From Strigamia acuminata (taxonomy: Eukaryota; Arthropoda; Chilopoda; Geophilomorpha; Linotaeniidae): a stretch of DNA of 64,000 nucleotides. The stretch lies in contig OX442314.1 in NCBI GenBank assembly GCA_949358305.1, positions 1,054,001-1,118,000 of the forward strand, written 5' to 3'. Shown one piece after another: positions 4,539 through 29,345 of the stretch. Position 1 is the stretch's first letter, and each line of letters starts with the position of its first letter. The notes below the pieces were generated by a model. That model saw only the letters and a program-made list of their open reading frames with translations, did not search any database and was not told the origin of the DNA. The translations under genes were made by a program, and so were the position numbers.

Positions 4539-4556
4539 CATCCCCCGGTGACAATC
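4539..4556 (-). other. gypsy-A polypurine tract
   Basis: On the minus strand the purine-rich ACCGGGGGA lies directly against the 3' LTR start TGTGATGATT. This is where the plus-strand DNA primer is expected in LTR retroelements. Confidence 0.7.
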
Positions 4557-5288
4557 ATAGAGTTTACCAACTTTTTAATTGTCATTCTTAATGTATAAGA
4601 AATGTTCACCTAATTCTATCGAATTAATCCACTTGGTAAGTATTTTATTAAACTTAATCTCGTTATTTCTTTCAGAAACTTCGTCACCCGATTAGACTAA
4701 TCGGCTTCCCTGTACAACGCAACTCCTGGTTGCTAAGCGACGGAAATGAACTCGTCCGAACATGGATACATGTTCGAGAAAACTAATTTCGATAGAAATT
4801 TTTATTTTCTCCATCAAATAAACTTCTTTCCTAGTTTATTAATCAGCAAGATAATCAATAAAAAATAAACTTATGCAAAATTTTATTTATCGAAAATCTA
4901 AACTACTAATTCTTTATTACGAATGTCATAAAAAATTAACGAATTTCAACTTGAAATTCTTCAACGCTTTGATCAAAGCAAAAAACAACACAATTTTCAC
5001 AAATAATTATGAAAAATAAACTAAACAATCACACATATGTTAATATGATTAATTCAAATAAACATCCAAATTGAATTCGAAAAACAATAACAAATTAAAT
5101 TGAATCCAATTTTTAAATTAAACTATACTCGTTTGAGCATTTAATTATTAGTTCAAGATCTTGAAACAAACAAACACAATACTCGTGGGAATATTTCGTA
5201 ATTGCAAAAACACAACAAAACACTTGGAGTATTTTTAGTCATAAAAAATCTCCACTCGGAAAAATAACGAACGTTAATTTTGTCCCTT
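4557..5288. other. AT-rich 3' untranslated region of gypsy-A
   Basis: No ORF of note on either strand. It is very AT-rich with short imperfect inverted repeats such as aattttcac/aaatt. I see nothing else in it. Confidence 0.6.
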
Positions 5289-6806
5289 TCATTCCTTCTT
5301 CTCGACTTCAGTCGAGTCTTTCTCTTCCTTCTTCTCGACTTCAGCAGAAGTCAGAAAATCCGACTCTTCAGTCGCCTCTGTCGAGACGGCGGAAAACACG
5401 GCTTCTTCCGGCGCTTCGATTTCATCCGGACTCGGAGGTGGAAACGGCATGTCGTCAAGAAGCTCAGCCACGAAGTCGACAACGGAAAGCAGCTCTTCCG
5501 CGTCTTCGAACTGTGCCTCGTCCGAAGTTTCAGACTTAGGCGCAATAGGAGCGCTCGAAACGTCGATTACGACCGCTGGAGGATCCTCCACGGGTTTGGA
5601 CGACGCTTCTACGGCCTGTTGAAGCTTACGAGCTCGCCCTCGTGCCAAGATGTTGGTTCGCTGAACCTTGGCAATTTCTCTCGCTCGGTCGAGCGTCAGA
5701 CAGCCTCGCCCTCGCGACATCGTTCTCGGTCGAACGATTTCTTCTACAACCTCGCTTCCAACGCTGTCGGCGGCCTGGACAGTTTCAGTAGAAACTTCGG
5801 AGTCCTCGGACGGCGGCGGTGACTGTCGAAGGAGTTCGATTCTTACGCCGGCGTTGACTTCAGCGCGGGCCCAGGTGAGGAAACGCGGGTCGATGTAGAC
5901 CGCTTCGCCACGACTATTCAGGAAAAGTCGGCACTTTGGGCAGTGAGCCCAACATCGCTTCTCGTTAGGCTTAATGCCTTTGACTACGTGGGGCTGAACC
6001 TCCTTGCGCCACGGCTCCGAACGCGGACGCGTTTTCCTTCCACGGCAGTTTGGACAGCGCATTAGAGAAGATCCTGCGGATGCACCGCAGCACCACCCAC
6101 AGCCGACGCAAAATGGGCAGATCGTCTCTGTTGCCTGGTCCGTCACGATGTTATCGTGAGGTATTCCGGCTGCCATGTCACGCTCGCACTGTTCTTTGCG
6201 CAGGCGGGCCTTCTCGTCCTTTTTTCTGGCCTTGTTGGCCGCTCGGTACTCGCGGTTGCGAGAAACAGGCTCCGAATAACGCAGAGCGCCCGGCGGCGGC
6301 TCATTCCATCCGTACTCTGACGCAGAAGACTCAGCACCAGCAGGAAGATGCGTAGCAGACGCTGATGATCCCGTCACAGTCGGTGCAGCAGCATTCGACG
6401 TGTGGGCGACGGTGGGCGCCACGCTTGCAGTTGGCGGCCGAAATTCGGGTGAATGCGGGGCCAACGGGACGTTGATAACGTTCGCGGGCGGATACGCCAC
6501 CTGGGCCAGCGGGGCCAATTGTGCCGACTCATAAATGGTTGGCTGCGCAGAAGTGGATGGGGCCTGCATCATCGCATTTAAGTCGAGCGGAAGTCCGTCC
6601 GGATGGACGCTCAGCCAATTTAGCGTTGCTAACTGCAGCGGCGTCAGGGCGTACATCGAGGCGGGCGCCGTCGGTATCGGTTGGGCCCTCATGTAAGCAC
6701 GTTCCGCTGAACGGCGTTGCTCGTCACTAGACGAGGTGGACGAGCTGGAACTTTCATGACGGTGTCGTCGATGACTCCGTTTTGAGTGATGTTTACCACC
6801 GCCCAT
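5289..6806 (-). CDS. gypsy-A extra ORF (ORF3), Cys-cluster protein of unknown function
   Basis: 505 codons from the ATG at 6806; the frame stays open up to 6908. I chose 6806 because tctacag directly precedes ATGGGCGGTGG and makes a good 3' splice site, so the protein may come from a spliced subgenomic RNA, as known for env of some gypsy elements. The N-terminus is basic and Ser-rich (GGGKHHSKRSHRRHRH, then Ser runs); residues 80-170 are Pro/Ala-rich; a basic stretch (NKARKKDEKARLRKEQ, about 191-206) could be a nuclear signal. A Cys cluster follows: CPFCVGCGWCC (230-240), CPNC (251-254), CWAHCPKC (285-292). The C-terminus is acidic and ends in a short EVEKKE repeat. It has no signal peptide, membrane segment or furin site, so it is not a recognisable envelope. 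Zinc and nucleic-acid binding are inferences. Confidence 0.65.
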   Translation of the reverse strand: MGGGKHHSKRSHRRHRHESSSSSTSSSDEQRRSAERAYMRAQPIPTAPASMYALTPLQLATLNWLSVHPDGLPLDLNAMMQAPSTSAQPTIYESAQLAPLAQVAYPPANVINVPLAPHSPEFRPPTASVAPTVAHTSNAAAPTVTGSSASATHLPAGAESSASEYGWNEPPPGALRYSEPVSRNREYRAANKARKKDEKARLRKEQCERDMAAGIPHDNIVTDQATETICPFCVGCGWCCGASAGSSLMRCPNCRGRKTRPRSEPWRKEVQPHVVKGIKPNEKRCWAHCPKCRLFLNSRGEAVYIDPRFLTWARAEVNAGVRIELLRQSPPPSEDSEVSTETVQAADSVGSEVVEEIVRPRTMSRGRGCLTLDRAREIAKVQRTNILARGRARKLQQAVEASSKPVEDPPAVVIDVSSAPIAPKSETSDEAQFEDAEELLSVVDFVAELLDDMPFPPPSPDEIEAPEEAVFSAVSTEATEESDFLTSAEVEKKEEKDSTEVEKKE

Positions 6807-7859
6807 CTGTAGACGCAAATAAATTATTTTATTAAAATAATTCCACTCTAAATAATCATTCCTTGGGTCCAAAGAATTAAAACGTATTGTTCGCAACGAA
6901 AAATACACGACTCGAGTTATTTATAACCCTTAACACGTGACACTAATGAGTCACATTCCCCTTGTGTTTATGACACGAGAATGGACTCGCCTGACAGCGA
7001 TTTTCATCGAAAATCGCAACTTGTTGATTTTTCAAAAGAAAAAATCCCCTTAGTTTTGTAAACTATTTAATCCAACTTCCGAGTATCAAAGATAACTTCT
7101 CGTATTAATTAATTAACACTTAGTCTAATAAATATCTTACATCGAAAATTCATCGCCAAATAAATTATGCAAGCCTCGACCGCGACTTGATTTAAATAAT
7201 TAGTGCCTACATACTTAAAACTTAATAATTCATTATTAATTTTTAACCCAACTATTCGACTGAATAGCTAAACTTCCAGAGTGATTTAATGCCGATTCAC
7301 GCTTATAATACACGTGAATTTTTTAACTTTTATCGGGACGCCGATATTTTACCAATTGTTGCGAACAATTCTTTTAAATTCTTTGGTCAAAGAATATTAT
7401 TGAAAACTACTTACGGCTGAAGCTAGTTTTCCTGCTTGAGTCGACTAAATGAATTAGCGTTGAAATCTCGAGTCGAAAAGTGAAGAGGGACGAAGGGACG
7501 AAGTCACTTATATCCACGTGTGTTACGAAGTGTTTGTGTGCAATGAACCCTGGGAATTTTATTCCCTATTAATTGTCGGGTTCGAGGTTTAATCACACCT
7601 CGTAAGTCTCATACCCTCGTGAAGAGGCGAGATTATCACTTTTCAAAGTAATTCTCTGTATTTTAATTAAAATACATACAAATATGACCAAATAATAAAA
7701 TATTCTATCGAATATTTTAACTTATCGCAACAAATTCATATTTTAATATAAATTTCGATACTCTTCATATCAAAGTGTCCCCCGGTGTTGAGATTTTCAA
7801 TCACTACACCTGTTAGACATGTAAAATAATTACTGTCTCCAAGTTTTAAATAAAACTTA
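6807..7859. other. gypsy-A spacer between ORF3 and pol
   Basis: AT-rich, no convincing ORF. In minus orientation it runs from the end of pol to the putative splice acceptor at ORF3. The open frame up to 6908 is probably incidental. Confidence 0.5.
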
Positions 7860-7953
7860 TCAATTCCAACAGAACTTTGAGGCTTTTCCTCGTTGTTGGT
7901 ATGGTTTTTTAAATACTGCAGTGATGTTTCGCACGAAATTTTCATCTGCATAT
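7860..7953 (-). pseudogene. Last codons of gypsy-A pol, displaced by the copia insertion
   Basis: Across the copia target duplication the pol frame that ends in NPKY at 15207 continues here for about 28 more codons to a TGA at 7860-7862. This gives the original C-terminus of pol. In the present arrangement the main pol ORF stops two codons into the copia LTR instead. Confidence 0.7.
7949..7953. other. copia target-site duplication (left), CATAT
   Basis: CATAT at 7949-7953 matches CATAT at 15209-15213, directly outside the two copia LTRs. A perfect 5-bp duplication is normal for Ty1/copia integration. Confidence 0.95.
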
Positions 7954-8484
7954 TGTGGGTCTAAAGACCATTTATTTGATCGATGTCGAATGTTTCTGAT
8001 GTCAATTTAGCGTTTTATTTCACACGATGTAAACTTTTACTGCTTTAGAATCAAATGCGGTATTTGTATTTGCTTTACGATTGTTCCGTACGAAATTCCG
8101 TACGATTTATGTATCTACTAATGAGATTTGTTCTATTTTTCAATGTTAATGTTATTATCTGGCACTAGAGTGCCACACTTGTTTTCCTTGCAAAATCCAA
8201 GATGGCGCAACACACGGGCGTGTGTTGCCCTGACTGTTTATCCACATCAAAGTAATGTATTTTCGTTTAATTAAATTGTTTTTAGTAGTTTTAACAATTG
8301 TACTTACTTTAAAGCACCTTCTGTGCTCTTTTGTGCGCGAATAAGCGGCCTTAAGCCGCGCGCTTGTTACGAAACGTATTGCGACGTATCGCAAACGTTC
8401 GCGTCGCAGACCGACGCCATTACGGCAATTTGCCGCACGCTTCTCGGCGATATCTCGCCGATATCTGCGCCCCTCTGTTCTACA
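7954..8484 (+). repeat. copia 5' LTR
   Basis: Starts TGTGGGTCTAAAGACC (itself an inverted repeat around TAAAGACC/GGTCT) and ends TTCTACA. It is repeated at 14678-15208 at a constant 6724-bp offset. Confidence 0.95.
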
Positions 8485-8486
8485 TT

Positions 8487-8504
8487 TGGTAGCAGAGGAT
8501 GGTT
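8487..8504 (+). other. copia primer-binding site, initiator tRNA-Met
   Basis: TGGTAGCAGAGGATGGTT, two bases after the LTR end, is complementary to the 3' end of animal initiator tRNA-Met (ending CCATCCTCTGCTACCA). Priming is therefore from the tRNA 3' end. Confidence 0.9.
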
Positions 8505-9389
8505 GCTGCCTAATTCCACGTTTATTTCGTTAATTTTCGACGTATTTGTCGCGAAATTCGCGACTTGTGCGCCGAAATTCGTTTATTTTCAGGTACCGAC
8601 GATCCTCGCCTCGTCAGTTTCGTTTTACGAACGTCTACGACGTACCGCCGACGTTCCACACAGCCAGGGCTGTTTATCCTACGATCATTTGACTAATTTT
8701 GTCCAAATTCTCGCGGGTTTCGCGGTTTTTGAGGCAAATTTATTTATTTTTGCAGATTTTTCGACAAAACTGGATTTTCGACACTGCTTAGCACGAAGCG
8801 GCAGTTCCAACGAGAACCGAACACTAGATTGTTCGCCGCTTAGTTCCCCGGTGAACGGCGGTTATCACCGATCTGTGCAAGTGGACGAAGAGCCTCGATT
8901 TATTCGAGAAGATTTCGGATTTCACATCCGAAATAGCGCTTTCTCCAGCTTTTCGAGAAAGCTGCGCCGTGCCTTCATTTGCACGAGGATCGCATCCGCG
9001 ATTGATTCGTCTATTTCTCCTTCTTTCGACTTTACCTTTGTTAGAATTAAGGGTATTTTGGTGTGGGACCTTATTAGATTCGACACAGCTCTTCGGGCAT
9101 TCCGTCCACCGCTGTGTTTGTATTTTGTGACAAGGCTGAGCCCTGCGCCACCTAGCATTCCCGTGACCCCAGGAGGTCGTAAAGGACGCTAGGGGGACAC
9201 TTGTCACAAGCTATCAGCTGATTGTAGCATCGGCTCCCCCTTTGAAGGTTTCCGCCTCGAAAGTGTGTGTGAAGTGCTTCAGTTCAGTGCTCCGAATCGA
9301 AGTCAGCATTTGTGCAGTGCTCCAGTATTTAACGTACCATTCCTTGAGTCAGTGTGTTCGTCGCGTTGTGTCGAGTTTTCCACTCCACA
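8505..9389 (+). other. copia leader (885 bp)
   Basis: A long untranslated leader between PBS and gag. A 289-codon frame (8323-9192) runs through it, but it begins inside the LTR without ATG and resembles no gene, so I treat the region as leader or packaging sequence. Confidence 0.6.
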
Positions 9390-12300
9390 ATGAAGAAAGC
9401 GTCGGAATTATCGGGCGGAACGGTTCCCGTACTCACCGTTGGGAACTATGAATCCTGGCAGCGCTCGATGCGCATGCTTCTAAAATCCGAAGGTTTATGG
9501 AGACACGTGACCGAGGAAAAGGAGGCCGAGCACCTTGCAACTTTAAATGAAAAGGAAAAGGACCGTTATGCTGTGAAAAAGGACAAAGCACTTGGTCACA
9601 TATATATTCACGTCAGTGAAGCGAAACGATCGGCCCTCGACGCTTGCAATACACCTAAGCAAGCATGGGACAAGTTGGCCACCATTTATGCACCGAGTTC
9701 CAGGGCCAGACGAGCGGCCATGAGATGGGAATTTTTGAGCCTCCAACTCAAACCTGGTGAAGACATGCCTGATTTCATCGGTCGTGTGGACCATTTTGTT
9801 CAACAATTAAAAGACGTTGGTGAAAATGTCTCAGAAGAACATCATTCTTTCCAATATCTCAAGGGTTTACCACCGGAATATTCCCAGGCCACGTTTGCAG
9901 TATACCACTGGCCCGACGCAAACTTTACTCCAACCAAAGTGGCGGAACAGTTATTGTCCGAGCAGATGCGTTTAAAGGCAATGGGATTGACTAACCAACC
10001 GTCTGCACATACCTCGAAAGGACAGTTTCGCCAGCGTAATCAATCTCGCGGACCTCGAGATTTGTCTAAAATCAAGTGTTTTAACTGTGATCAAATGGGT
10101 CACTACGCTAATCGTTGCCCTCAACCACCACGTGGAGACGGGAATCAGTCCACAGCTTCTGTTCAGCGTTCGTCGCGAAGTAAAAGCCGCAGACGTAATA
10201 AAAATGCCGCTGCCAAAGTTGAAGACAATCGCCCACGCGGAAGTTCACGTCCGAAGCGAGAGGGGACATTCTTTTGCAGTGCTCCGCAGATTATTGAGCG
10301 TCCTACGGTCCATTTCATGCAATCCAATGAATGGATCGTGGATTGCGGGGCAACAGATCACGTTTCCCACGTGCGTGACTGGTTTACAGACTTTTCAAAT
10401 ATCCAGCCATTTGATATTGCGTTAGGCCAAGGCAAATCACAGGTGACAGGACGAGGGACAGTTCAATTGCTCACGTCGGTCGATGGCGCGGATTGCACCA
10501 TCAATTTGAAGAACGTTCTCTTTGCGCCGAATTTCGAAGCCAATTTGATTTCGGTGTCAAAGATTGACAAGACCAATCACCATGTGCATTTCTTTAATGG
10601 AGAGGTGAATGTTTATCAGACAGACTTCCGTTCACCTATTATTCGTGCGAGAGAACGCGGTGGATTATATTATTTGGACGGTTTATGCTCAACGCATCTT
10701 GTGACGCCAACTGTTTCAACAATTACTCAACCGCCAGTCCAGATATCACTCCAACCTGTGCAAACACTTGTCACAACAGAAGTAGATTTCGACAACGTGC
10801 CAAAGCCAAAGAAGGGCAAATCAAAACTACGGGAAATTTCAGACTTTCGCATAACTTTGCCTGCTATCGAACCAGCGAAGCAAATGCCAGTTCAGCAAAC
10901 TCCTAACCCTCCTTTACCTGCACAAGTCACCATTCCACCGCCTACCCAGAAAAATCCCAATATCCAATCCTATGTTGACATCCTAAAGTCCTTGCCACAT
11001 GCCTTTCTACCCAGCGAAACCTCTAATCCAAAACAGAAGGTTGTTGCTAATCCTACTACAGTGAAGGATGCAACTGGTTTGTGGCACAGTCGTCTTGGCC
11101 ACCTTCATACGAACGCCATGAAGTTGTTAGCGGCCAATGAACAAGTCCATGGAATGGAGCCAGCAGAAGTCCGTCAGGAGTTAGCCTGCAATGACTGTCG
11201 TATTGCTAAATCTACGAGGGCTTCTCACAAGCCGGACCCACATCCCATGACTTCAAAGCCATTAGATCTTTTACACATGGATTTGTGGGGGCCAGCCCCA
11301 ATCACTTCCTTGGGCGGCTCGGATTATGTATTCACCATAATTGACGATGCAACACGCTACACCTGGATTTTTCCTCTGACACATAAATCTCAGACATTTG
11401 CTGCATTTAAAGACTTCGTCGCCAGAGTTGAGCGGGTTCAGAACACTACCGTAAAAGCAATCAGATCCGATAGGGGCGGCGAATTCATGTCAAATGAATT
11501 CTTGCATTATCTTCAAGAAAAGGGTATCCAGGGACAGCGAACTAACCCCGCATCGCCACAAATGAACGGGACAGCAGAAAGGATAAACCGGACAATGGCC
11601 GACAGTGTCCGATCGATTATTTCAGAAACAAAGCTCCCTGATGCACTCTGGGCCGAACTCGCTGTTACCTTCGGGTATATAAAGAATAGGAGCCCACATT
11701 CCAGACTGAAACATCAAGTCCCATACATTCTTTGGCGACAAAGAGATTTATCATTACGCCACCTACGTAAAATAGGATCCAAATGTTGGGTGCATTACAC
11801 TGCACCGGGACGCAAGAAACTGGAAGCGCGTGCTTGGGAAGGATATCTTGTTGGCTACGCCACCAGCACTCGCGGCTACAGAGTCTGGAATCCAGTCGAA
11901 GACAGAGTATATGAATCTATTCACGTTAAAATCGACGAACATCAATCTTATCGGAAGTCTTTGCGAGGTTCAACGCAAAGACCTGATGAAACATTCCTTG
12001 AAAACGGCAATGGACAACAATCCGTATCATTTGACGATAATGTCAGATATCATCGTTGGCCGAAAGGGTCTGATTCTGATCGCTCTGATAACAGCGATAA
12101 CGATGATGACAATGGCAATGACAACCAGACTTCAACATCTGCGTCAATGCATACACCTCTTGTCTACTTGCCGCCTCCGACGACACCTGAGCAGCGATTA
12201 TTGGATGCATGTGCGTTGGAGTTACCAAGCTCAGCTAGTTTGAGACAATCTCAATCGTATCCTATTCTATGGATTCCACCAGATGAGGACGATACAGATG

Positions 12301-14453
12301 CCGATATTAATAAAATAGATGAACTTTCAATTTATCCTGGAACATCTGAATTCACTGGCACGTCGCCCGAACAATCGCCATGTCAAACTCCACCACCTTC
12401 ACCTGCTCGGTCGCATCGCCAAACTCCACCAACTTCGCCTGACCGATCACATCATCAATCTGAAGCGTCAGCTGGACAGTTGGCTCATCAATCTCCGCCC
12501 GGTTCGCCAGCACGATATATCACGTATCGTCGTAAAGGGCGTGGAGCAGACTCAGGAAGTCATACTGTACCAGTATTCGATGACACCCCAATGTCTCCTG
12601 CTCCGATTCCTCCCATAACAGGAACTGAAGTTCCGGCAGCGACTGAGCGTCATACAGCACATATGTGGCGACTTGTCGGCGGGAATTCCGAATGTAGTAA
12701 TTGGAGACGCGAAGAGCATCTTAGAAAAGATCAAGTACCTGGGAAGATTAGGACCGACGTTTACTATTTTCCAATGCCTGGAATCAGACTCAGATCACCG
12801 AAAGACATTGAAGAATATTGCATGCTCAACAACATAGACTATGAGCCTGAACTTTTCACGTTCCGCAATATTGAATACACGTTGCCAATTATCCCAGGAC
12901 CCCAACATGCAGCCCATCTTTGTCGAACGGAACCGGCCTCTTATGCCGAAATACCCAAATTCACGGACGCTCCGAAATGGCGCGAAGCCATCGATGAGGA
13001 GCTGGGAACGTTCGTCGAGAGAGAGGTCTATGTAGAAGTCCCTAGACCACCTAACACTACCATCTTGGGCTGCAAGTGGATCTTCAAATTGAAGACGGAT
13101 GTAACCGGCACCATCACACGATACAGGGCCCGTCTAGTCGCGCAGGGATTTCGTCAAACGCTGGGCGTGGATTATGATGAAGTTTTCAGCCCAGTGGTGA
13201 ATTTTGTTTTAATTCGCCTATTCTTCTGTCTCCTGGTTGTGTTGCGTGGTTGGAAGGACGCCCATCTTGACATTAAATGTGCGTACCTGTATGGTGAGTT
13301 AAAACACAAGGTTTACATGAGGATCCCTGCAGGTGCCACATGCTCCGACCCCAACAACGTTTGGCTACTCGTAAAATCGCTCTACGGACTGCACCAATCA
13401 GGAAGGCAGTGGTTTGAAAAGCTGGATGAAGCCCTTCGAGATCTTGGATTTAAGAAGATGCCGGCATGTAACTGTGTTTACACATTTGGGAATTCTGCCG
13501 TAATGTTGATCTATGTGGATGATATTGTTCTCTTTTATGCTTCAGACAGCATTTTCAGCCAGTTACTTGCCCTCATTAGTTCAAAGTTCCAGATAGTTAA
13601 TCTTGGTCCAATCACGAGACTACTGGGCGTTGAGTTCATCCGTGACGCAGGGCGCACGTTCATCACACAACGTGCGTACATCGCAAAACTTGTGAAGAAA
13701 TTTGGCATTGCAACCAACAATCGCATCAAGGTTCCCGTGACTCCCGGCACCACACTCGTGAGAGGGTCAACCGAAAATCTGGCAGACTTTCCCTACAGGT
13801 CACTCATTGGATCATTATTATTCCTGGCGTCAAGAACGCGCCCCGACATTCTTTACTCAGTGATTGCTCTGGCACAATTCAACACATGCTACAATCAAAC
13901 GCATATCCGTGCATTGCTACAGGTCATGCAATACGTCGCCAACACTGCGGACTTGTGCATTGAGTTGTCCGGTTGCACATCATCACAACTGTGGGCATTC
14001 ACTGACGCGTCGTGGGCAAGCGATCCAGAAACATCCTTGAGCTTCGGTGGCTACATCACCTATGTTGGAAACGTACCGATCGGCTGGTCTTGCCGAAAAC
14101 AGTCAACCGTGGCATGCTCAACAATGGAGGCGGAGTTTATCGCCCTTGTTGAGTGTGTCAAGGAGCTGTATTGGTTGAATCACGTGTACACCCAGTTTCC
14201 AGCTTTGAATCGCCTATCTCGACCCGTCGTTCATTCCGACGCCCTGGCCAGCATACAGTTCACCTCAAACGATGTGGAGAACTCGAAGACTCGACATATC
14301 CGCGTTCGTTATCACTGGCTCAGGGAATGGTTCACGGCGGGACGCTTTGATCTCCGAAAAGTGGAAAGCGAGTTCAATGTCGCGGACATTTTCACGAAAT
14401 GGCTCAGTTCGGAGCGTCTACGATCGCTGATTGCCAACATCTTCAGATCATAG
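9390..14453 (+). CDS. copia Gag-Pol polyprotein with MBD-like insertion
   Basis: 1687 residues. I start at ATG 9390 (context CACAATGA); the frame is open from 9354 but without an ATG. Gag is followed by a CCHC knuckle C230-C243 (CFNCDQMGHYANRC). The protease has D318-C-G-A instead of the usual DSGA. Integrase has H566/H571/C600/C603 and the DDE triad D631, D694, E730. After it comes a Ser/Pro-rich linker (SPARSHRQTPP-type repeats, about 990-1080). An MBD-like segment lies at about 1091-1165. RT carries YVDD at 1375, and RNase H has TDASWASD and STMEAEF motifs. No frameshift or stop interrupts it, so Gag-Pol is one frame as usual in Ty1/copia. It acts in cytoplasmic particles for reverse transcription, then in the nucleus for integration. 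Confidence 0.95.
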   Translation: MKKASELSGGTVPVLTVGNYESWQRSMRMLLKSEGLWRHVTEEKEAEHLATLNEKEKDRYAVKKDKALGHIYIHVSEAKRSALDACNTPKQAWDKLATIYAPSSRARRAAMRWEFLSLQLKPGEDMPDFIGRVDHFVQQLKDVGENVSEEHHSFQYLKGLPPEYSQATFAVYHWPDANFTPTKVAEQLLSEQMRLKAMGLTNQPSAHTSKGQFRQRNQSRGPRDLSKIKCFNCDQMGHYANRCPQPPRGDGNQSTASVQRSSRSKSRRRNKNAAAKVEDNRPRGSSRPKREGTFFCSAPQIIERPTVHFMQSNEWIVDCGATDHVSHVRDWFTDFSNIQPFDIALGQGKSQVTGRGTVQLLTSVDGADCTINLKNVLFAPNFEANLISVSKIDKTNHHVHFFNGEVNVYQTDFRSPIIRARERGGLYYLDGLCSTHLVTPTVSTITQPPVQISLQPVQTLVTTEVDFDNVPKPKKGKSKLREISDFRITLPAIEPAKQMPVQQTPNPPLPAQVTIPPPTQKNPNIQSYVDILKSLPHAFLPSETSNPKQKVVANPTTVKDATGLWHSRLGHLHTNAMKLLAANEQVHGMEPAEVRQELACNDCRIAKSTRASHKPDPHPMTSKPLDLLHMDLWGPAPITSLGGSDYVFTIIDDATRYTWIFPLTHKSQTFAAFKDFVARVERVQNTTVKAIRSDRGGEFMSNEFLHYLQEKGIQGQRTNPASPQMNGTAERINRTMADSVRSIISETKLPDALWAELAVTFGYIKNRSPHSRLKHQVPYILWRQRDLSLRHLRKIGSKCWVHYTAPGRKKLEARAWEGYLVGYATSTRGYRVWNPVEDRVYESIHVKIDEHQSYRKSLRGSTQRPDETFLENGNGQQSVSFDDNVRYHRWPKGSDSDRSDNSDNDDDNGNDNQTSTSASMHTPLVYLPPPTTPEQRLLDACALELPSSASLRQSQSYPILWIPPDEDDTDADINKIDELSIYPGTSEFTGTSPEQSPCQTPPPSPARSHRQTPPTSPDRSHHQSEASAGQLAHQSPPGSPARYITYRRKGRGADSGSHTVPVFDDTPMSPAPIPPITGTEVPAATERHTAHMWRLVGGNSECSNWRREEHLRKDQVPGKIRTDVYYFPMPGIRLRSPKDIEEYCMLNNIDYEPELFTFRNIEYTLPIIPGPQHAAHLCRTEPASYAEIPKFTDAPKWREAIDEELGTFVEREVYVEVPRPPNTTILGCKWIFKLKTDVTGTITRYRARLVAQGFRQTLGVDYDEVFSPVVNFVLIRLFFCLLVVLRGWKDAHLDIKCAYLYGELKHKVYMRIPAGATCSDPNNVWLLVKSLYGLHQSGRQWFEKLDEALRDLGFKKMPACNCVYTFGNSAVMLIYVDDIVLFYASDSIFSQLLALISSKFQIVNLGPITRLLGVEFIRDAGRTFITQRAYIAKLVKKFGIATNNRIKVPVTPGTTLVRGSTENLADFPYRSLIGSLLFLASRTRPDILYSVIALAQFNTCYNQTHIRALLQVMQYVANTADLCIELSGCTSSQLWAFTDASWASDPETSLSFGGYITYVGNVPIGWSCRKQSTVACSTMEAEFIALVECVKELYWLNHVYTQFPALNRLSRPVVHSDALASIQFTSNDVENSKTRHIRVRYHWLREWFTAGRFDLRKVESEFNVADIFTKWLSSERLRSLIANIFRS
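12660..12884 (+). other. Methyl-CpG-binding (MBD/TAM)-like domain within copia Pol
   Basis: Residues 1091-1165 of the polyprotein. Recognisable features in order are a Trp-Arg-Arg-Glu start (W1105), an R-K-D turn (R1112), G-K, then TDVYYFPMPG with D1123 and Y1125, LRSPKDI with R1135, and a tail EPELFTF like the DPxDFDF tail after the MBD of MeCP2-type proteins. In MeCP2 the 5-methylcytosine and DNA contacts are made by an Arg, an Asp, a Tyr and a second Arg at the matching places, and all four are present here. The domain lies after the integrase linker and just before RT. A role in steering integration or reading methylation is inference. Confidence 0.7.
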
Positions 14454-14677
14454 ACCTGCACTACCTTCAATAATGACATTCCTAAGTTATTTTTCCCAAA
14501 GTTGAGGATAATCGAGTTCAGTGGGAATCCTCGGGCTTCCTTAGTGAAGAGTTCTTCAATATCAGTACCCGGCTTGATTATTCGCCTATATTATTTGTTT
14601 TTCTGAATATAACACACTGTAATTCCAGCATCTGTTAGCTATCTCCCCTGTAATTATTCACCATCGAAGAGGGGATT
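14454..14677 (+). other. copia 3' UTR and polypurine tract
   Basis: 224 bp between the stop and the 3' LTR. It ends with GAAGAGGGGATT directly before the LTR TG, a good polypurine tract. Confidence 0.8.
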
Positions 14678-15208
14678 TGTGGGTCTAAAGACCATTTATT
14701 TGATCGATGTCGAATGTTTCTGATGTCAATTTAGCGTTTTATTTCACACGATGTAAACTTTTACTGCTTTAGAATCAAATGCGGTATTTGTATTTGCTTT
14801 ACGATTGTTCCGTACGAAATTCCGTACGATTTATGTATCTACTAATGAGATTTGTTCTATTTTTCAATGTTAATGTTATTATCTGGCACTAGAGTGCCAC
14901 ACTTGTTTTCCTTGCAAAATCCAAGATGGCGCAACACACGGGCGTGTGTTGCCCTGACTGTTTATCCACATCAAAGTAATGTATTTTCGTTTAATTAAAT
15001 TGTTTTTAGTAGTTTTAACAATTGTACTTACTTTAAAGCACCTTCTGTGCTCTTTTGTGCGCGAATAAGCGGCCTTAAGCCGCGCGCTTGTTACGAAACG
15101 TATTGCGACGTATCGCAAACGTTCGCGTCGCAGACCGACGCCATTACGGCAATTTGCCGCACGCTTCTCGGCGATATCTCGCCGATATCTGCGCCCCTCT
15201 GTTCTACA
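14678..15208 (+). repeat. copia 3' LTR
   Basis: 531 bp, same length and ends as the 5' LTR, followed by the second CATAT (15209-15213). Confidence 0.95.
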
Positions 15209-18200
15209 CATATTTAGGATTCGGCCTTCGCTCTCGTCGAGGACGAAGGCTAGTTCGCGGAACTACCGGTTGGGGTTTGCGGGGTTTTCGAGGTAGTTTC
15301 TTTGGAGTTTCACCTCTTTTCAACGCCGCTTTCTTTTCTATAGCAGTTAATCGTTGTCTATGTCTATGTTTAGACTTAATGGGCGCAGATTTGTCAATTT
15401 GCACCGAAGTTGAGTCGGATAATTCCATTGGAATTTCTGAGGAAGTTTCAGGAATTAATTCCATTTCTTCAGCATCCGGAAGCTGGTTACTTTCATCCAT
15501 CCATTTAAGATTTTCTTGAGGCGAGTAAGAGGCGGACTTTTGTCCTACTTTCCAAGTCTCAATCGGGTACGACGGAGTATAGGGATACAACGCTTTAATA
15601 TTTACTGATTTTTCAATCGAACCATCAGCTAATTTGCGTAATTTATACGCTCCGCCAGGAAGTACTTTAGTAATCTCCCATGGACCATCTCTCTTCTCCG
15701 CGAAACCAGCAGAAATATTTTTATCTGCGCACGAGAGAATGTGAGTTTGTTTCCAAACTAAATCTCCAACTTCGAACTCCGTAATTACGAACTTTTGTTC
15801 GTGTATTTTTCTATGCCGCTCAAAATTCAATTGAATTCTGCGATGCATCTCTTGATGCGATCTGCGCAATACATCCAATAGTACTCTGACATATTTTTCT
15901 GGATTTTCTTTGTCAAATGGATTGGCATGTTTAATAATCCTTGGGTCGAAAGGTAATGTTACGATTCGTCCCGTGTTCAGTAGCATCGGGCTTGAGCCGG
16001 TTGCTGCCGAAACATTATTTCGCATTGCGAATGCAAATTCGTCTAAATAACGCGGCCATTGCGTGTGCACGTCTGTGTACAGGGCCAGCATCGTTTTTAT
16101 ATCTCTATTGGCTCGCTCTGTCGGGTTCGCCTGGGCATGATACGTGCTCGTATGAGACGGGCGAATGTTGTACATATCGCAATACTCATTGTAAATATCG
16201 GAAACAAATTGTTTTCCGTTATCGCTCACAATCTTTTTGGGGTGTCCCCATCTGTTTGTAACAGATCTTAATTCTTGAACGCAGTTAGCGCTCGTGGCTT
16301 TGGTCAAAGCCTTAATTTCAACGAACTTGGTACAATTGTCAATAATGACAAAGATATACTGGTTTTGGGACCTTCCTGCGGGTTTCGGGCCCATCAAGTC
16401 CATGTTAATACATTCCCAAGGATTGGTCATGTTGTGTGGTGTGTACGGAGCTGCGTGCCTTTTCTGTTGAATAGGCTTGTACTGAGCACAGTGCGTGCAG
16501 CTTTTGACGTAGTTCCTGACACTTCTACTCATACCAGGCCAGAAATATATTAAACGCGTTTTCTCAAGCGTCTTACTCATCCCAGCGTGACCGCTTAGGG
16601 GGTGGCCATGACAAGTGAAGAGTACTCGCTTTACGAGTGCACTGGGTACAACGGCTTTAAAGCCATTTCCCGAATCGTTTAATTCCTCTTCGAACGAAGG
16701 GTTAAAATAGATGATCATTTGATCACCATCGACTTCTTTTTTGTCTAAACAATAGTTTTTGACTTTGTTTTTCCATTCTTTTATTTCAGATTGTGGTATC
16801 CCAACAACCTTGTCATTCAATAAGTATTCTCGAATGCGTTTGCATTCAATATCTAGTAACTGAGCATCTATTATTTCTCTCCTTGTAGGAGGGACTTCTT
16901 TAAGTACTTCAGTCAACGCACTGTACAAGGTTTCTTGTACTTCCTCCCCCTCCTTTTCTTCAGAACATTCTTTAGAATTTTCTGAAAAATAGGAACGCAC
17001 ACTAGCCAAATATTCTCGTTTCTCCGGGGCACGATTTAATGAAACAGAAGGATTTCCGTCCCACTCAGGCCAGTATTGTTTAATTTCGACAGGTTCCACA
17101 TGATCACGAAGAGGAATGTCTTCCTCTGTTAGTGGGGCTCTAGAAAGTGCATCTGCAACTTGGTTAGCAGCACCTTTTCGAAAAACAATTTTAAAATTTC
17201 CACATTGGATTCTTAAGGCCCATCGGCCAAATTTCCCAGATGGTTCAGGCGTTCGCATCAACCATTTCAGTGCTTCTGCATCTGACTCTAAAGTGAATGT
17301 ACCATATTCGAGATATGGTTTAAATCGATCAATAGCCCACACGACTGCGAGACATTCGAGTTCCGGCGTTGTATAACGCTTCTCCGCTCCACGTAAAACT
17401 CTGCTTGCATAAGCTACAGGTCTGGGTACAGAAATATTTTTCTGCTTCTTTTCATCGAATATATCGACGTCTTGGCAAAGGACAGCTCCTAAGCCTTCAT
17501 GTGAAGCGTCAGTCATGACAACAAATGGCAAAGTCATATCTGGTTTGTGTAGACAATTGTCACCACAAAGTAGCTCTTTAATTTTATTAAAAGCTTCTGT
17601 CTGCTCATCTCCCCATTCAAATGGAGTTTTCTCATTCATCATACGTGTGTATGGTGCGGCAATAGTTCCGTGATTTGGAACAAACTTCCTGAAGAAGTTA
17701 GTCATGCCGTGAAAGCGCTGAATGTCTTTAGCACACGTGGGGGTGGGAAATTTCATAATCGCCGATATTTTATCGGGATCACCGAAGAGACCTTCGGGTT
17801 TAATCCAGTGGCCCAAGAATTTTAATTCTGTACGCCCAAAACGAGATTTCGCTTTATTTATTGTCATGTTGGCTTGGTTAAGCCTTTCTAGAACATCTCG
17901 AACGTGTTTGAGATGATCATCCCAATTATCTGAATACACAATTACGTCATCCAAATAGACTAACGCGTAGTCTTGTAAAGCTGAGCCTAAAATGCCTTCC
18001 ATCAGACGCTGGAAAGTACAAGGCGCATTACAAAGGCCAAACGGCATTCGCACAAACTGATATGGACCATTTGGCGTGTAAAATGCCGTCTTTGGACGAT
18101 CTTCTTTACACATTTCGACTTGGTAGTAACCTTTAACAAGGTCAATAGACGTAAAATACTTTGCCGGACCAGTATTATGCAACAAAAGGTCAATACTTGG

Positions 18201-19318
18201 CATTTGTATTACTTCGACTTCAGTGATGGCATTTAGCCACCGGTAGTCAATGCACATCCTATACGAGCCGTCAGGCTTCGCAACAATGACGGGATGACTT
18301 ATGAAGGGCCCTTTGGCCTTTTCAATGAGTCCATCCTGTTCCAATTCTGCAGCTAGTTTGGTCATAATGGCTCTCTTGGCCGGGTTATACATTCTATACT
18401 GCATTTTGGGCAATGAATGCCCTTCTTTGAACTTAATACGATGTTGGGTCACGTTAGTGCACCCAACTTGATCACGAAATACATTCGGTATCGATTTAAC
18501 CACTTCGCGAAGTGCTAGTCGTTGTTCTGGAGTGCAGTCGCTCTCCTCAACTAATTTTTCATCCCAAGTCAACACAGGAGTGTCTGTTAACTCAATTGAG
18601 TTGAGGGTGGACGACAGTCCTAAATAATCGAAAGTAATTCGATTCAACGGGGCGAGGGCCAAATTGGCTTCTTCCGACTCATAAGGGGCGGACCAATTGG
18701 GTTTATCTGCACACGAGAACTCTTGTAAATGTGGATGCGGACTAATTTTCTGTCTGCGCATGAAATTGTGACCAAGTATCAAGCCACAAACTCGTTTTGC
18801 TAAAACGATGAAATTCATTGGTGTAAATTCATCAGCCCATTGCACGCACAAAGTTATTTGTCCGACAGGCTTGTGTGCTACGCCTACAGCGTTAACCAAC
18901 ATGTTTCTGGGGGCCTCTTGCAAAAATTCTGGCAAAGCCTGAGTTTCAGACAAGAGTTGTTCCCCAATGTAACATTGAGATGCTCCTGTATCCATGAGCG
19001 CGTTGTAGGTGAGCCCACCAATTGTGATCTTCATTCGAGGATCATCTTTATTATTACTTAAAGTAATATTGTGCAAATTATTACCGCCTATGACTCTGTT
19101 GAGTCGGCGAAGTCTACAGAATTTCTTCGTGTAACACTTGTGTGGAAATAATGTCAGATTTTTTAATTGTTCTGTCATTTCTTGCAGATTTTCCTCTACT
19201 CCGCCACTATGACTAGTGGCTACTTCAAGACAAGTTGTGTCTACATCCATAAATAAAGATTCCGATGTAGCATTAGCTACTTCTGGGGGATGGAATAAAC
19301 CTTCGTCCCCCGGATCTA
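15204..19318 (-). CDS. gypsy-A Pol (protease, RT, RNase H, integrase)
   Basis: The first in-frame ATG is at 19250, but the frame is open back to the gag stop, so entry by -1 frameshift at 19319-19325 is more likely. Counted from the ATG: protease DTGA 87-90; RT with Asp370 (SIDLVKGY) and YLDD 432-435; RNase H starting at D581 (TDASHEGLG); integrase zinc-binding H883/H888-type and C918/C921; catalytic D951, D1010, E1045; then a basic C-terminal tail rich in Arg/Lys/Pro. No chromodomain is visible. All catalytic residues are present and the frame is intact until the copia insertion, which replaces about the last 28 codons with two codons from the copia LTR. The inserted copia is the only damage seen. 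Confidence 0.92.
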
Positions 19319-19327
19319 GTTTTTTGA
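19278..19327 (-). promoter_or_regulatory. -1 programmed frameshift signal at the gag-pol junction
   Basis: In gag frame the end reads TCA AAA AAC TAG. The heptamer A AAA AAC (19325-19319) is a classic X XXY YYZ slippery site lying directly before the gag stop. Slipping back one base gives CTA GAT CCG, which is exactly the pol frame. Eight bases downstream, GGGGGA can pair with TCCCCC across a 15-nt loop, the kind of stimulatory stem usually found 5-9 nt after slippery sites. Confidence 0.8.
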
Positions 19328-20257
19328 ACTAGTAGCACTTGAATCTGTCGATTCGGGCTTGATCAAAGTTTTGACCATTTCTGCCAACGAGTTGGTCAGC
19401 GAAGTTTGTAACTTATTTTCAAAAGTATTTAATTTCGCGTCAAGTTTAGCATCTAGTGTTGCATCCAACACTTCTTGAGTTATCCACCTATTATTAGGTC
19501 GTTTAGAAGTAGGATCCACAGTCGGGGAATCCGGCGTACTTCGTTTTTGCAACTCTTCAGAGTTGAAATTTGCACGTGGTTTTAAATCCGGACATTCTCG
19601 ACGCATGTGTCCTGGTTTCTTACAGTGGTAACAAACTAATTGACCACGTCTGGTCTGATCTACTACTCCGTTTATTAAATAAACAGCCTCGCATTCCTCA
19701 GGTAACTCTTCTTCACAAATATTAAGTTGTTCTTGTGAATCCAAAGTTAAGGATTTAGCATTTGTCTTCGACTGAGGACGAGTGTCAGTTTTCCGAGGTG
19801 GGAAAACAACTGGATTGGAAATATTTTCCCTTGCTCCATTAGCTGTACGACTGTACAAGCCTTTATTTTTCGTTATAACGGCATAAATCTCTGTCAGAGG
19901 CAGATCCGCTATGCCTTGCGTATGCAAAAGCAAATCATTAGCAGGAGTTACACTCCCGATAAAAAGACAACCAGCCCCTTTTGCATCAAGACTGTCTTGT
20001 AATATCCATAACTGGTAATATTTGTGCATAAAGTCGTAAAGACTTTCTGTTTCCAGTTGTTTCAACTTAGTTAGTTGGTTCGTCCGCTCTTGTCGAGTGG
20101 CTACAAACCGTTCTTTGAACGCCTGTTCAAATACTTCCCAAGATATGAAATCTTCTCTCCTTTCATGAAACCAACCATGCGCTTGCTCGGTTAGATAACC
20201 GGCTACGCCTTTAACAAGCATGTCATCGAGTGACATGTTTTCGCAGGAAAGCGACAT
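19316..20257 (-). CDS. gypsy-A Gag, C-terminal part (capsid and CCHC knuckle)
   Basis: 313 codons from the ATG at 20257, which overlaps the upstream gag frame by 35 bases. The N-terminal part has the retrotransposon-gag pattern (YLTEQAHGWF, then SWEVFEQAFKERF at about 39-51, LYDFMHKYYQL at 73-83). A CCHC zinc knuckle follows at C209-C222 (CYHCKKPGHMRREC), and a coiled-coil-prone tail with Asp-Ala-Lys-Leu repeats at about 265-275. It would package RNA in virus-like particles. The frame is +1 relative to the upstream ORF, with the switch near a run of six A. Either one base was gained or lost in that run, or a frame change or reinitiation is used. It ends at the -1 frameshift signal into pol. 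Confidence 0.8.
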   Translation of the reverse strand: MSLSCENMSLDDMLVKGVAGYLTEQAHGWFHERREDFISWEVFEQAFKERFVATRQERTNQLTKLKQLETESLYDFMHKYYQLWILQDSLDAKGAGCLFIGSVTPANDLLLHTQGIADLPLTEIYAVITKNKGLYSRTANGARENISNPVVFPPRKTDTRPQSKTNAKSLTLDSQEQLNICEEELPEECEAVYLINGVVDQTRRGQLVCYHCKKPGHMRRECPDLKPRANFNSEELQKRSTPDSPTVDPTSKRPNNRWITQEVLDATLDAKLDAKLNTFENKLQTSLTNSLAEMVKTLIKPESTDSSATSSKN

Positions 20258-21563
20258 TTTTTACAATGTTGAGAAAGCGTTCGCTTTCTTCTGCTTTTCC
20301 GGAGAATACAGGGATATCCGGGGGCTTCAAACTGTTAGTTTGAGGGACAGTGGCGGAACTTTTTCCTGCCTGCATTAATTTGTGCATGGTTGTGGCAATT
20401 GACGCGAGGTCATCAGCCGTCATTCCAAAACTACTGGGGGGGCGCGAGTTGTCGTTTGACGACCCGCCATTATTTGGTTGACTCGAGTTATTTTGACTTG
20501 AGCCACCACTATTAGGGTTGAAATTATTCGACCCTCCTTGATTTGACCTGCTGTGGTTACCAAAGTTCGAATGGTTATTCGAATTGCCTCGGTTCCCATA
20601 ATTCGAATGATTATTAGAATTACCCTGATTGTCAAAATTCGGACGGTTGTTCGAACTTTCTTGATTACCAAAATTCGGACGATAGTTCGAATTACCTGGC
20701 GTACCTCGATTCAAATAGTTATTTGAATTTCCTGGAGTTCCAGTAGAAGGATTATTTAAATCATTCGGATTATTTGGGTTATTCGAGTTTGGAGGAACTG
20801 GGTGACCCCTTTGCATGTTAGGTGCTGGACTAGAATTGTTTGCAAATCTAGAATTTGGGTCAAAACGGCGGTTTGGACCTCTTGTCGCACCTGAATTTGG
20901 GTTCGAATTTCCAGCGAGATTCGGACAACTATTTGATCCGTTTATAAAACTTGGATTAGGGTTGGCCATATTAGGCGGACCCAAATTCGCTCTGTTGAAC
21001 GTATTCTCAAAGTTCTCTGGATTTGTAAATCCTCTTTGTTGGTTGCGAGCGAAGTTATTCGCTCGTAATCGTTGTTGGAAAGCACGATTAAAATCTCCTG
21101 GTGTCAAATTCGACTGATCTTGACGAGGAGGTTGTGCATTTTTATTTCTATATCTAGAAATAGGCGTCGAAGGAGTGGGACTAAAATTATTTAATCTTTG
21201 GCTGGCTGGGGAATTAGGTTGCTCCGACGTAGCACGTTGCGCGTGTACAAAATCTAACACTTCGGTCAAAGATCTAAATTGGTTTGGGTTCAAACCGTGA
21301 TCCTGACAAAATAATAGACCGCCTCGGCCTAAATGAGAACCTTCAGGAATGCATTCCTCTTCTCCAGGCGGAGTAGGTTCTCGTGGAGCCCTATTCTCTC
21401 CAGATGGTCCGGCTGTTTCATTTGAAACGCCATTATGGACCGCGTGGTTTTCCACTTCTTCAGTTCCATTAGGAACAGGTATAAACCCGGATAGATTCAT
21501 TCCACCGGTCAAACAAGTTCTTTCCTTACCACGGGTGTTCATGTGATGCTGGTTATTAGTCAT
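20223..21563 (-). CDS. gypsy-A Gag, N-terminal part (Asn-rich)
   Basis: 446 codons. The first ~110 residues are Pro/Glu-rich and contain GGLLFCQDHGLNPNQF. Residues about 190-375 are very rich in Asn, Gly, Ser and Pro, with repeats of the type GNSNNxxNFGN, a prion-like low-complexity segment. The end (KPPDIPVFSGKAEESERFL) is the usual start of a gypsy capsid domain, which then continues in the other frame at 20257. The break therefore lies inside the capsid domain, which argues for a frameshift (mutational or programmed) rather than two separate proteins. ATG at 21561-21563; a second ATG seven codons on is also possible. Confidence 0.75.
   Translation of the reverse strand: MTNNQHHMNTRGKERTCLTGGMNLSGFIPVPNGTEEVENHAVHNGVSNETAGPSGENRAPREPTPPGEEECIPEGSHLGRGGLLFCQDHGLNPNQFRSLTEVLDFVHAQRATSEQPNSPASQRLNNFSPTPSTPISRYRNKNAQPPRQDQSNLTPGDFNRAFQQRLRANNFARNQQRGFTNPENFENTFNRANLGPPNMANPNPSFINGSNSCPNLAGNSNPNSGATRGPNRRFDPNSRFANNSSPAPNMQRGHPVPPNSNNPNNPNDLNNPSTGTPGNSNNYLNRGTPGNSNYRPNFGNQESSNNRPNFDNQGNSNNHSNYGNRGNSNNHSNFGNHSRSNQGGSNNFNPNSGGSSQNNSSQPNNGGSSNDNSRPPSSFGMTADDLASIATTMHKLMQAGKSSATVPQTNSLKPPDIPVFSGKAEESERFLNIVKNVAFLRKHVTR
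20440..20760 (-). repeat. Tandem Asn-rich repeat in gypsy-A gag
   Basis: Imperfect repeats of about 36 bases with attcgaa / aattacc motifs, encoding 11-12 residue units of the GNSNNxPNFGNQ type. Likely length-variable between copies. Confidence 0.65.
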
Positions 21564-22674
21564 AACTAAACTTAAAACTAAGAAAATTTCCTAAATCTGA
21601 GAGATAACGATGAAGTTGCAAACGTTCAGGAGGATCGCAAACGAAGCAGTGGTCACACTAGTTCGAATGGAAGTATGAATACTTCGATACACCTCTCTGA
21701 TTGGTCAAGTATCAACGCTAGTCTCGCGAGAGTCCAATCTCGTCCGAGATTGGTGGAAATCATCAAATTCGTGGAACCGTAATCTTGACAGACTCCAGTG
21801 TTATGACGTAGTCACCAAACAAAATGGATACTTTTCAAAATATTTTTATATTTTAAAATATCACCGCATTTATTAATAAATGAATGATCACCTTTATGGA
21901 ATTTTTTAAAGTTTTTAAACTCGTAATTTCAAAAGACGCGCCGATTCGTTTGAATCGACGGCTTTTCTGCACAACACAGGTTGCTAGGCAACACAACAGC
22001 GAGAATTCTTCTTCGCTAAAATTCGAATGGTATTCAATTCGTAAAATTCGATTTCAATGGCTTGAGATCACGATTTTTAACCAACATTTTAATGTAGATC
22101 AAGTCTGTAAATCAGGTAAACCCACTTTGAAATAAAATATAAATTTTAATTCCTTCGAAAAAAATGTCAATTTCTTTCTAATTTATTTAGGCAAATAAAT
22201 TTAGGTTTAACTTGAAGTCTCAAGCAAAATACATATGAAAGAGTATTCTAAAATTAAAACAACTGTTAAATTGATAGAATTCTTTAAGAATTCCATCAAA
22301 AGTCAACTTTTCAAAATTAGGCCCGACCGCGTGGTTTTGTCAGATTGTCGACGAAAAAATGACGTTACCCGGGCGGAACCAAATTCAACAAATTCGGGCA
22401 AGACTCTCATTCTCGGGGTTAGGCCTTTAGGCCTGACCACGCGGTAGAAATTATTATTTTGTTAAAACGTATAATTTCCACGACGGAGAATAAAGAACAA
22501 AGTGAGTTACACTTATTATCTCGCGAGAAGTTCTACAACAGAATAAAATATATTAAACATAAATAAATCTCAAACGAAATTTATTTTTCACACAAAAATT
22601 ACCATAAACGTTACACTACTCGAATTCATCATAGACATGCAAAACTTCAAATTTTATTTAAAATTTGGCAGCCT
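21564..22674 (-). other. gypsy-A 5' leader (1.1 kb)
   Basis: No convincing ORF. It holds an inverted repeat (GACCGCGTGG near 22325 and CCACGCGGT near 22437) that could form a stem in the RNA, as packaging signals do. Otherwise AT-rich. Confidence 0.5.
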
Positions 22675-22692
22675 ATCTCGGTAGAACCTCCA
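22675..22692 (-). other. gypsy-A primer-binding site, tRNA-Gln
   Basis: On the minus strand TGGAGGTTCTACCGAGAT starts two bases after the LTR end. It is complementary to a tRNA 3' end ATCTCGGTAGAACCTCCA, which fits animal tRNA-Gln (acceptor GGTTCTA with U73). Confidence 0.8.
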
Positions 22693-22694
22693 CT

Positions 22695-23795
22695 TGTGAC
22701 GATTCTACTTTTGGTTGATTTAATAGCCATTTAAGATAGTTAAATAATCGGTTTAAACAAGACGTTGCTAAGTTTAGCAACAACCTAACCGAGATAAGCT
22801 ACGGAAGCCTTCACAAACATGAATATGTAATCAAGTAGAAATAACTTACAGTTTCAGTGTGACATGACATATTTATTACTAAATACTAATAACAAAAGAT
22901 GGGTTCTGGACGCGTGTAAACGGGCGGCATCAACTGGTTGAGGATCCGGGCGAAGCCAGAGGGATACGGCTGACTTGCGGCATCGTCACAAATAGCGCTA
23001 CGGAGACGCGTTTGGTCCGCAGCTCGAATATCTAAACATGCGAAGAGTCCTTCGCATTAATCGGAATATTCGGCAGAATATTCCATGTTCCAAATGAATA
23101 AAAGTAAAGTGAGTAAAGTAATATAACAAATGAATTGTTATATAAATAATAATTGGGCGGGGACCGTCACGACAATTGAGAGAACGTCGCGGGAGTTGTT
23201 GAGACTCCATCCGCCAGCATGCCTTACGACGACAAGATCTCGTGATCAGGCGCCGAGTATTTAATTGTACGCTTTAACTCGCTATCGGTGGTACTAACCA
23301 CCAGGTAAACATTTATATGGACTTACCGGGTTTAAAAGATGTTGCCAATACAGGATTACCAATGCCCGAGTAATTTATTTAACACAGTGTTGTTCAACTC
23401 CTGTTCACGGGTTACTAACCCGGAGGGTACGATGGGGCGGGGACCGTCACGACGGTCGAGAGAACCATCGCGGGAGGATTTGACTCCTCCATCCGCCAGC
23501 ATGCCTTACGATGGCGGGATCCAACGATCGAGCACCGGGTAAAATATTATTTGGCCACTGCCGTTGGATTACCATTATCCAGGTAGTTATTTATCGCAAC
23601 ATCTACAGATATTACTCACGGGCTACCAACCCGGCGTGTTACTTGTGCATTAGGCCTTTACCGACTTTTAACGAGCGGAAGGACCAATCATAGAAAGACG
23701 GGAACCTGCGTGGGTTGTTTACAACAACCATCCTGCAGCGGACTGTGGCCAGTTAGCTGAGGGACCTACTTTCATTTAGCAAGGTCGTACTGTAT
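22695..23795 (-). repeat. gypsy-A 5' LTR, truncated (1101 of 1747 bp)
   Basis: Matches 2792-3892 at a constant 19903-bp offset without indels, then changes abruptly at 23796 to unrelated sequence. In element orientation the lost 646 bp are the outer U3 part, so the upstream promoter region is probably gone. Confidence 0.88.
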
Positions 23796-29284: not shown

Positions 29285-29345
29285 TTACGTGACGTGGCAC
29301 GTTGCTGTTACGTGACGCGATAGCCAGTATTTAAGCAGGGGATTC
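29285..29345 (+). promoter_or_regulatory. Promoter-like sequence facing into core P1 (left)
   Basis: Two TTACGTGACG boxes (29285-29294, 29308-29317; bZIP-type palindromic ACGT core), TATTTAAG at 29328-29335 and GGGGATTCC just after. The mirror copy at about 31905-31965 faces the opposite way. Only motif-based; no evidence of transcription. Confidence 0.35.

Follow-up and report, generated by a model that had tools for sequence, protein, structure and literature searches.

We describe here a stretch of 64,000 nucleotides of the Strigamia acuminata genome (assembly GCA_949358305.1, contig OX442314.1, positions 1,054,001 to 1,118,000 of the forward strand; hereafter the window), which carries a copia element with a candidate methyl-CpG-binding domain (MBD) in its polyprotein. 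The element spans 7954-15208 on the plus strand and is read in a single open frame, in which the Pfam domains follow the usual order of Gag, zinc knuckle, integrase core, SH3-like domain and copia reverse transcriptase (RT). The order Gag, integrase and RVT_2, the long terminal repeats (LTRs) and the short target duplication place it in the Ty1/copia group. Its two LTRs are identical over 532 aligned bases, CATAT duplications flank them and the frame stays open for 1699 codons, in agreement with a preliminary description of this DNA that had called the element young and fully open. It is nested within a Ty3-type element, whose own LTRs of 1102 bp are also identical. Residues are counted here from the GTG that begins the frame, and the R1112, D1123, Y1125 and R1135 of the preliminary description, which were counted from the in-frame ATG (codon 13), correspond to R1124, D1135, Y1137 and R1147 (Table 1).

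Table 1. Features of the copia element and of the Ty3-type element that hosts it (positions within the window)
Feature	Positions	Strand	Details
Target site duplication CATAT, left copy	7949..7953	no strand	5 bases just outside 5' LTR
5' LTR (TGTGGG...TCTACA)	7954..8484	+	identical to 3' LTR
gag-pol open reading frame, 1699 codons from GTG	9354..14453	+	first in-frame ATG at 9390
Gag, copia type (Retrotran_gag_2)	9468..9977	+	Pfam E 4.4e-30
CCHC zinc knuckle	10071..10124	+	Pfam E 3.5e-5
Integrase catalytic core (rve)	11256..11558	+	Pfam E 9.1e-13
Integrase SH3-like domain, residues 797-866	11742..11951	+	Pfam E 1.8e-23
Ser/Pro-rich linker	11952..12698	+	from translation of the reading frame
MBD-type domain, residues 1116-1172, with R1124, D1135, Y1137, R1147, S1148	12699..12869	+	profile, PDB, fold, residues
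Reverse transcriptase (RVT_2), residues 1224-1463	13023..13742	+	Pfam E 8.6e-57
3' LTR	14678..15208	+	identical to 5' LTR
Target site duplication CATAT, right copy	15209..15213	no strand	5 bases just outside 3' LTR
Ty3-type element hosting the copia; order protease, RT, RNase H, H2C2, integrase	2791..23795	-	LTRs 2791-3892 and 22694-23795, 1102 bp, identical

The block that the preliminary description had taken for an MBD is present, as described, in the translation of 12660-12884, and this identification is backed by profile, fold, residue and tree evidence. Against the Pfam MBD profile (PF01429), one of the checks that had been suggested, the 75-aa block scored 22.5 bits, over the cut-off of 21 (E 8.8e-5), and 17.7 bits, below it, when the whole polyprotein was scanned, so that the Pfam scores for the window block taken by themselves would be marginal; other families of the same genome score up to 50.3 bits. 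When the block alone was compared with the PDB at E up to 1, all 14 sequences found were MBD/TAM proteins (best E 0.0028), and a profile of 31 sequences, made of the block and 30 relatives, found MBD/TAM domains in 32 of 33 matches (best 2.7e-9, MBD4), the lone remaining match being a SUMO at E 0.006. Pfam MBD was matched at E up to 0.01 by 29 of these 31 sequences. Structure prediction, the other check suggested, gave a domain model with a predicted local distance difference test score (pLDDT) of 80.5, and its best structural matches were all MBD/TAM; the window block folded by itself gave a poor model (pLDDT 50). A viral structure library gave no credible match (best E 0.16), and NCBIfam gave four transposase matches only, each below its own cut-off. 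The R, D, Y and R of an MBD are the residues that contact methylated CpG, and all four are present in the window, as had been claimed, and in 27 of the 31 aligned proteins. Among 11 representatives from the same genome, the tyrosine is retained in seven, the window's included, and replaced by V, I or W in four (loci L005, L008, L041 and L046), in which the remaining domain is retained. Some sequence separates the integrase SH3-like domain from the RT in every copia, and the block might on that ground be regarded as an ordinary extension of the copia RT. This we consider extremely improbable, because the block is absent from the stretches sampled from this genome's MBD-less copias, one for each of eight families (best 4.6 bits), and because the PDB matches and the best fold matches are MBD. 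On the basis of these comparisons, the domain is almost certainly an MBD; it is an MBD fold with the residues that read methylated CpG.

We searched the whole assembly (237.5 Mb in 157 contigs) for further copies. Of 1092 first-look candidates for Pfam MBD, 150 were scored and all of these lay above the cut-off; one of them, L052, reads from its exons as a host BAZ2-like gene, and the remaining 149 were treated as copia. A search with the window block, in which 150 of 1329 candidates were scored, found 11 that are identical over 157 residues, the window's own copy counted. Merging both searches gave about 299 distinct MBD places among the candidates scored. Eight MBD loci were read in context, the other places being classed by their scores and the lengths of their open frames. 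Wherever a copia example was read, the MBD is part of the polyprotein, flanked by integrase and RT, and nothing suggests that it has a frame of its own. All 58 loci read except L052 carry the block, as judged with our own profile, which was built partly from those loci. A database search with the MBD region alone gave no match at E up to 0.001, and a search with residues 1095-1480, which comprise the MBD region plus the RT, gave 187 relatives, 120 of them listed. Precomputed PF01429 matches are present in 13 of the 120 listed relatives, and the block profile from the S. acuminata genome finds the MBD in 35 of them at E under 1e-7, some partial. Among the named sources of these 35 rows are Araneus ventricosus, Stegodyphus mimosarum and Trichonephila clavipes, spiders thus being included. 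Related copias with the same insert, which the preliminary description had proposed to look for, are found at about 299 places of the genome, 57 of them read, as well as in these 35 database proteins. Its author had recognized the domain and knew of no other copia with an MBD; the recognition stands, and the second part has to be corrected, because the trait is clade-wide, occurs in other animals and was already visible in the 13 precomputed matches. Apart from this, two other copia-like database polyproteins (P0099 and P0121) have precomputed SET (PF00856) and chromodomain (PF00385) matches, that is, further chromatin domains.

The relationships of these elements were examined with the RT only, the MBD columns being excluded. 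In a midpoint-rooted tree of 98 rows, for which 46 of 77 MBD-less rows were used and eight rows with a short RT match were omitted, all 49 MBD rows fall within one clade of 56, with support of 100 in the SH-like approximate likelihood ratio test (SH-aLRT), and the 42 other copias lie outside it. Presence of the MBD on this tree takes three changes, which fits one gain and two losses. In a more careful tree of 77 rows, with 22 outside rows and with P0022 omitted as a long branch, support for the MBD clade is 100/99. L081, an MBD-less copia of the same genome, lies outside the clade. The seven clade rows without a full domain consist of a subclade of six, three of which have weak remnants, and a spider fragment (P0079), which retains the domain's end only. 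Judging from the RT phylogeny, the MBD is very probably a trait of one copia clade, and the MBD-bearing copias belong to an old clade of animal elements.

We compared substitution rates over 16 pairs, which share sequences and so are not independent. The ratio of nonsynonymous to synonymous rates (dN/dS) of the MBD could be computed for seven of them, silent sites being saturated in the rest, and was 0.04, 0.15, 0.06, 0.11, 0.04, 0.18 and 0.07. The part of the linker that adjoins the MBD has a dN above that of the MBD in 15 of the 16 pairs, the sole other pair being L057-L058, in which the linker has no amino-acid change. By these rates, the MBD is under purifying selection, with a constraint stronger than that of the linker and weaker than that of the RT. 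In the pair L057/L058, a separate observation is that the MBD segment has a dS of 0.475 while the linker, integrase and RT parts have 0.07-0.12, a pattern suggestive of an MBD exchanged by recombination or template switching.

A domain of this kind would need a methylated substrate in the host. In its COX1, taken from the mitochondrial contig, the host is closest to the centipede Mecistocephalus marmoratus (84%), with horseshoe crabs, other centipedes and millipedes next among the 120 matches listed of 7999, which suggests a centipede without singling out a species. The assembly contains four DNMT1-type loci (L067-L070), with catalytic exons in all, RFD in two and CXXC in one, and with a BAH match below the cut-off in one; one further methylase locus is taken for DNMT2. 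An ADD_DNMT3 exon and a PWWP exon share a strand and are about 0.5 kb apart. The number of DNMT1-type loci equals that reported for S. maritima, whose genome paper gives four Dnmt1 alongside a single Dnmt3 and describes an unusual peak of high CpG, at 1.48 (PMC4244043). A bisulphite survey, in the part available to us, reports that the large majority of the transposable elements (TEs) of S. maritima are methylated, with a sharp drop at TE edges, and regards this as an independent gain (PMC7343188). Because DNMT1-type and DNMT3-like exons are present in the host and TE methylation is reported in S. maritima, a methylated substrate for the MBD probably exists. A host without DNA methylation was considered, since CpG is not depleted, and was dropped when these exons were found. 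In stretches of 1.6 kb, the CpG observed/expected ratio is 0.80-1.22 in nine MBD loci and 1.14-1.53 in eight MBD-less copias (Mann-Whitney p 0.004), a deficit that is relative to the background and is to be read with the reservation that the families are related and may differ in codon use. In ten copies with 93-98% identity, C-to-T changes, which are unpolarised, are 1.53 times as frequent at CpG as at the remaining C/G.

We also examined where the copies lie. The comparison group consisted of the best 150 of 2633 RVT_2 candidates, which we presume to lack the domain, as no listed MBD place is found within 2.5 kb of any of them and the eight stretches sampled are without it. The retroelement map consisted of the best 150 of 4264 RVT_1 candidates, taken without regard to class, Ty3 order being shown for the window's own element only, and 117 kinase places served as a proxy of genes. 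Positions were compared within 500 kb on 11 large contigs, and a copy was called intact when its open frame was at least 1500 (MBD) or at least 1280 (other group). At least one mapped RVT_1 element lies within this distance of 108 of 177 intact MBD copies (61%) and of 18 of 97 intact copies of the RVT_2 group (19%), against 30% for random positions (Fisher p 7e-12; the copies are not independent of one another). A kinase lies within the same distance of 40 of 177 and 35 of 97, respectively (random 32%, p 0.02). Small contigs hold 28 of the 299 MBD places versus 3 of 150 of the RVT_2 group. When copies were grouped by open-frame length into families of five or more, the mean RVT_1 count was 0.69-2.60 in 11 MBD families and 0.63 at random, and among six families of the RVT_2 group it was 0-0.33 in five and 1.00 in one, which has five copies. 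The MBD elements concentrate in retroelement-rich regions.

In yeast copia-type integrases (Ty1 and Ty5), targeting tails sit in the region before the RT. In the mechanism that we propose, the MBD would be released as a C-terminal tail of the integrase and would bind methylated CpG there; the pre-integration complex would thereby be tethered to methylated, transposon-rich chromatin, where insertions may do little harm. Such targeting would parallel that of chromoviruses by their chromodomains, with DNA methylation as the mark. Methyl-reading that guides integration is plausible from the retained key residues, the host methylation enzymes and the chromosomal distribution of the copies, and we infer that the MBD stays with the integrase, prefers methylated CpG and causes the compartment bias. 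We give methylation-guided targeting about an even chance, and the full statement, of an MBD copia clade whose domain is under selection and tethers integration to methylated, transposon-rich chromatin, seems to us equally balanced between right and wrong. A wider form is more tentative, and we would place it a little below even: a whole clade of arthropod copias would use its own MBD to read 5-methylcytosine and thereby steer integration, host TE methylation would mark the landing sites for further insertions, and families that lost the tyrosine would have turned to a different mark or simply to CpG-rich DNA.

Several results weigh against methylation-guided targeting. A subclade of six database rows (P0005, P0006, P0008, P0011, P0015 and P0016), nested in the MBD clade, lost the MBD or retains weak remnants only, and the RT has a dN below that of the MBD in 13 of the 16 pairs. 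A search with PF00145 found no catalytic exon near the DNMT3-like exons. The CpG observed/expected ratio is 1.43 in the window and 1.01 in the reading frame of the element, showing no absolute depletion, which is evidence against heavy germline methylation; the C-to-T ratio at CpG is 0.97 in five copies of 75-83% identity and 1.17 in all 17 non-identical copies taken, and the excess is thus far from a strong methylation footprint. As for the distribution, three of the 11 MBD families barely exceed the random mean (0.69-0.75 versus 0.63), the compartment is formed by the mapped RVT_1 elements themselves, which have no known MBD, and this compartment could arise by selection against insertions elsewhere. 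The MBD-bearing and MBD-less copias are, in addition, different lineages with different integrases. An RVT_1 element lies within 500 kb of 64% of 101 copies in the group that has mostly V, I or W at the tyrosine among the copies read, and of 55% of 71 in the window-like group. This similar bias suggests that the methyl-reading tyrosine is not strictly needed, or else that something apart from the MBD is the cause.

These points bear unequally on the other explanations. The main rival is generic binding, in which the MBD would be a general DNA- or chromatin-binding module without real methyl preference, for example one that holds cDNA or target DNA by the integrase. It is favoured by the V/I/W lineages, in which selection maintains the remainder of the domain and whose group shows the same chromosomal bias, and it is weakened by the retention of all four contact residues in most aligned proteins and of the tyrosine in seven of the 11 representatives, because a generic binder would not need the R, D, Y, R set; we regard it as unlikely, while taking it seriously. 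The compartment bias might also be independent of the MBD, if copies survive longer in gene-poor regions or if another part of the integrase chooses them. The mapped RVT_1 elements do concentrate in the same regions, the compared groups differ beyond the MBD, and the V, I, W and Y groups are alike. This explanation is nevertheless quite improbable, as the presumed MBD-less copias of the same genome are without the bias, apart from their sixth family, and as the bias is also seen in copies with long open frames, which are likely young. The MBD might instead counter silencing, either once the element is inserted or within the particle, if it occupied methylated copies or competed with the MBD proteins of the host. 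Such an action corresponds to evasion of host silencing, the second suggestion of the preliminary description, and fits a host group whose transposons are reported as methylated in the available part of PMC7343188. No result of the analysis speaks for it, and the embedding of the domain between integrase and RT speaks against it, so that it too appears improbable. Methylation-guided targeting of integration is, on the whole, the explanation that we prefer.

The remainder of the window contains other repeated sequences. A large palindromic and tandem array occupies 25907-49686, its units measuring about 1.69 kb and a frame of 325 aa recurring in it; 25907-35343 has 99.2% identity to its own reverse complement, and CpG observed/expected is 1.82 in 29300-49000. 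A second element of Ty3 gene order lies at 49914-53972, its polyprotein being split into two frames around 52355-52389, and 60112-61395 matches 2791-4068, a segment that includes the left LTR of the Ty3-type element, at 93%.

Retrotransposons with chromodomains and with methyltransferases are already known, as the text of PMC5890265 available to us indicates. What appears to be new here is the MBD in a copia clade, already half visible in databases through the precomputed Pfam matches; among the matches listed in a search of open-licence literature, no title or beginning of an abstract describes a retrotransposon with an MBD, the MBD passages seen of PMC8616336 concern host proteins, and the terms 'MBD' and 'methyl-CpG' have no occurrence in the main text of PMC5890265. 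Integrases of retrotransposons are already known to read histone marks; a retrotransposon clade with a reader of DNA methylation, if true, would tie the choice of insertion sites directly to silencing by the host. It would make testable whether transposon methylation attracts further insertions, and it adds a case of arms race beside the methyltransferase-carrying retrotransposons, in a host group for which a passage of PMC7343188 reports an independent gain of transposon methylation.

Compared with known systems, the window element resembles other Ty1/copia (Pseudoviridae) LTR retrotransposons in its Gag, its zinc knuckle, its integrase before RVT_2, its LTRs and its target duplication of 5 bp, and differs from them in the MBD between integrase and RT, which the eight sampled MBD-less copia stretches of the same genome lack. 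With the chromoviruses, Ty3 elements whose chromodomain sits on the integrase and aids insertion in heterochromatin (according to an excerpt of PMC12477314), it shares a reader of a chromatin mark beside the integrase on a retrotransposon polyprotein; the superfamily and the domain are different here, and the presumed mark is DNA methylation, not histone methylation. The window polyprotein has no PF00385 match at E up to 1, and the element, being a copia, is not a chromovirus. The retrotransposons with cytosine methyltransferases, as described in the available text of PMC5890265, likewise took up part of the DNA-methylation system; they carry the writer, whereas the MBD copias carry the reader, and the window polyprotein, with no PF00145 match at E up to 1, is not of the methyltransferase-carrying kind. 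Host MBD proteins (MBD4, MBD2/3 and MeCP2) have the fold and the contact residues for methylated CpG in common with the copia domain, MBD4 being the best PDB profile match, but the copia MBD sits in the polyprotein of a mobile element, and in many relatives the loop ahead of the DVYY strand is shorter.

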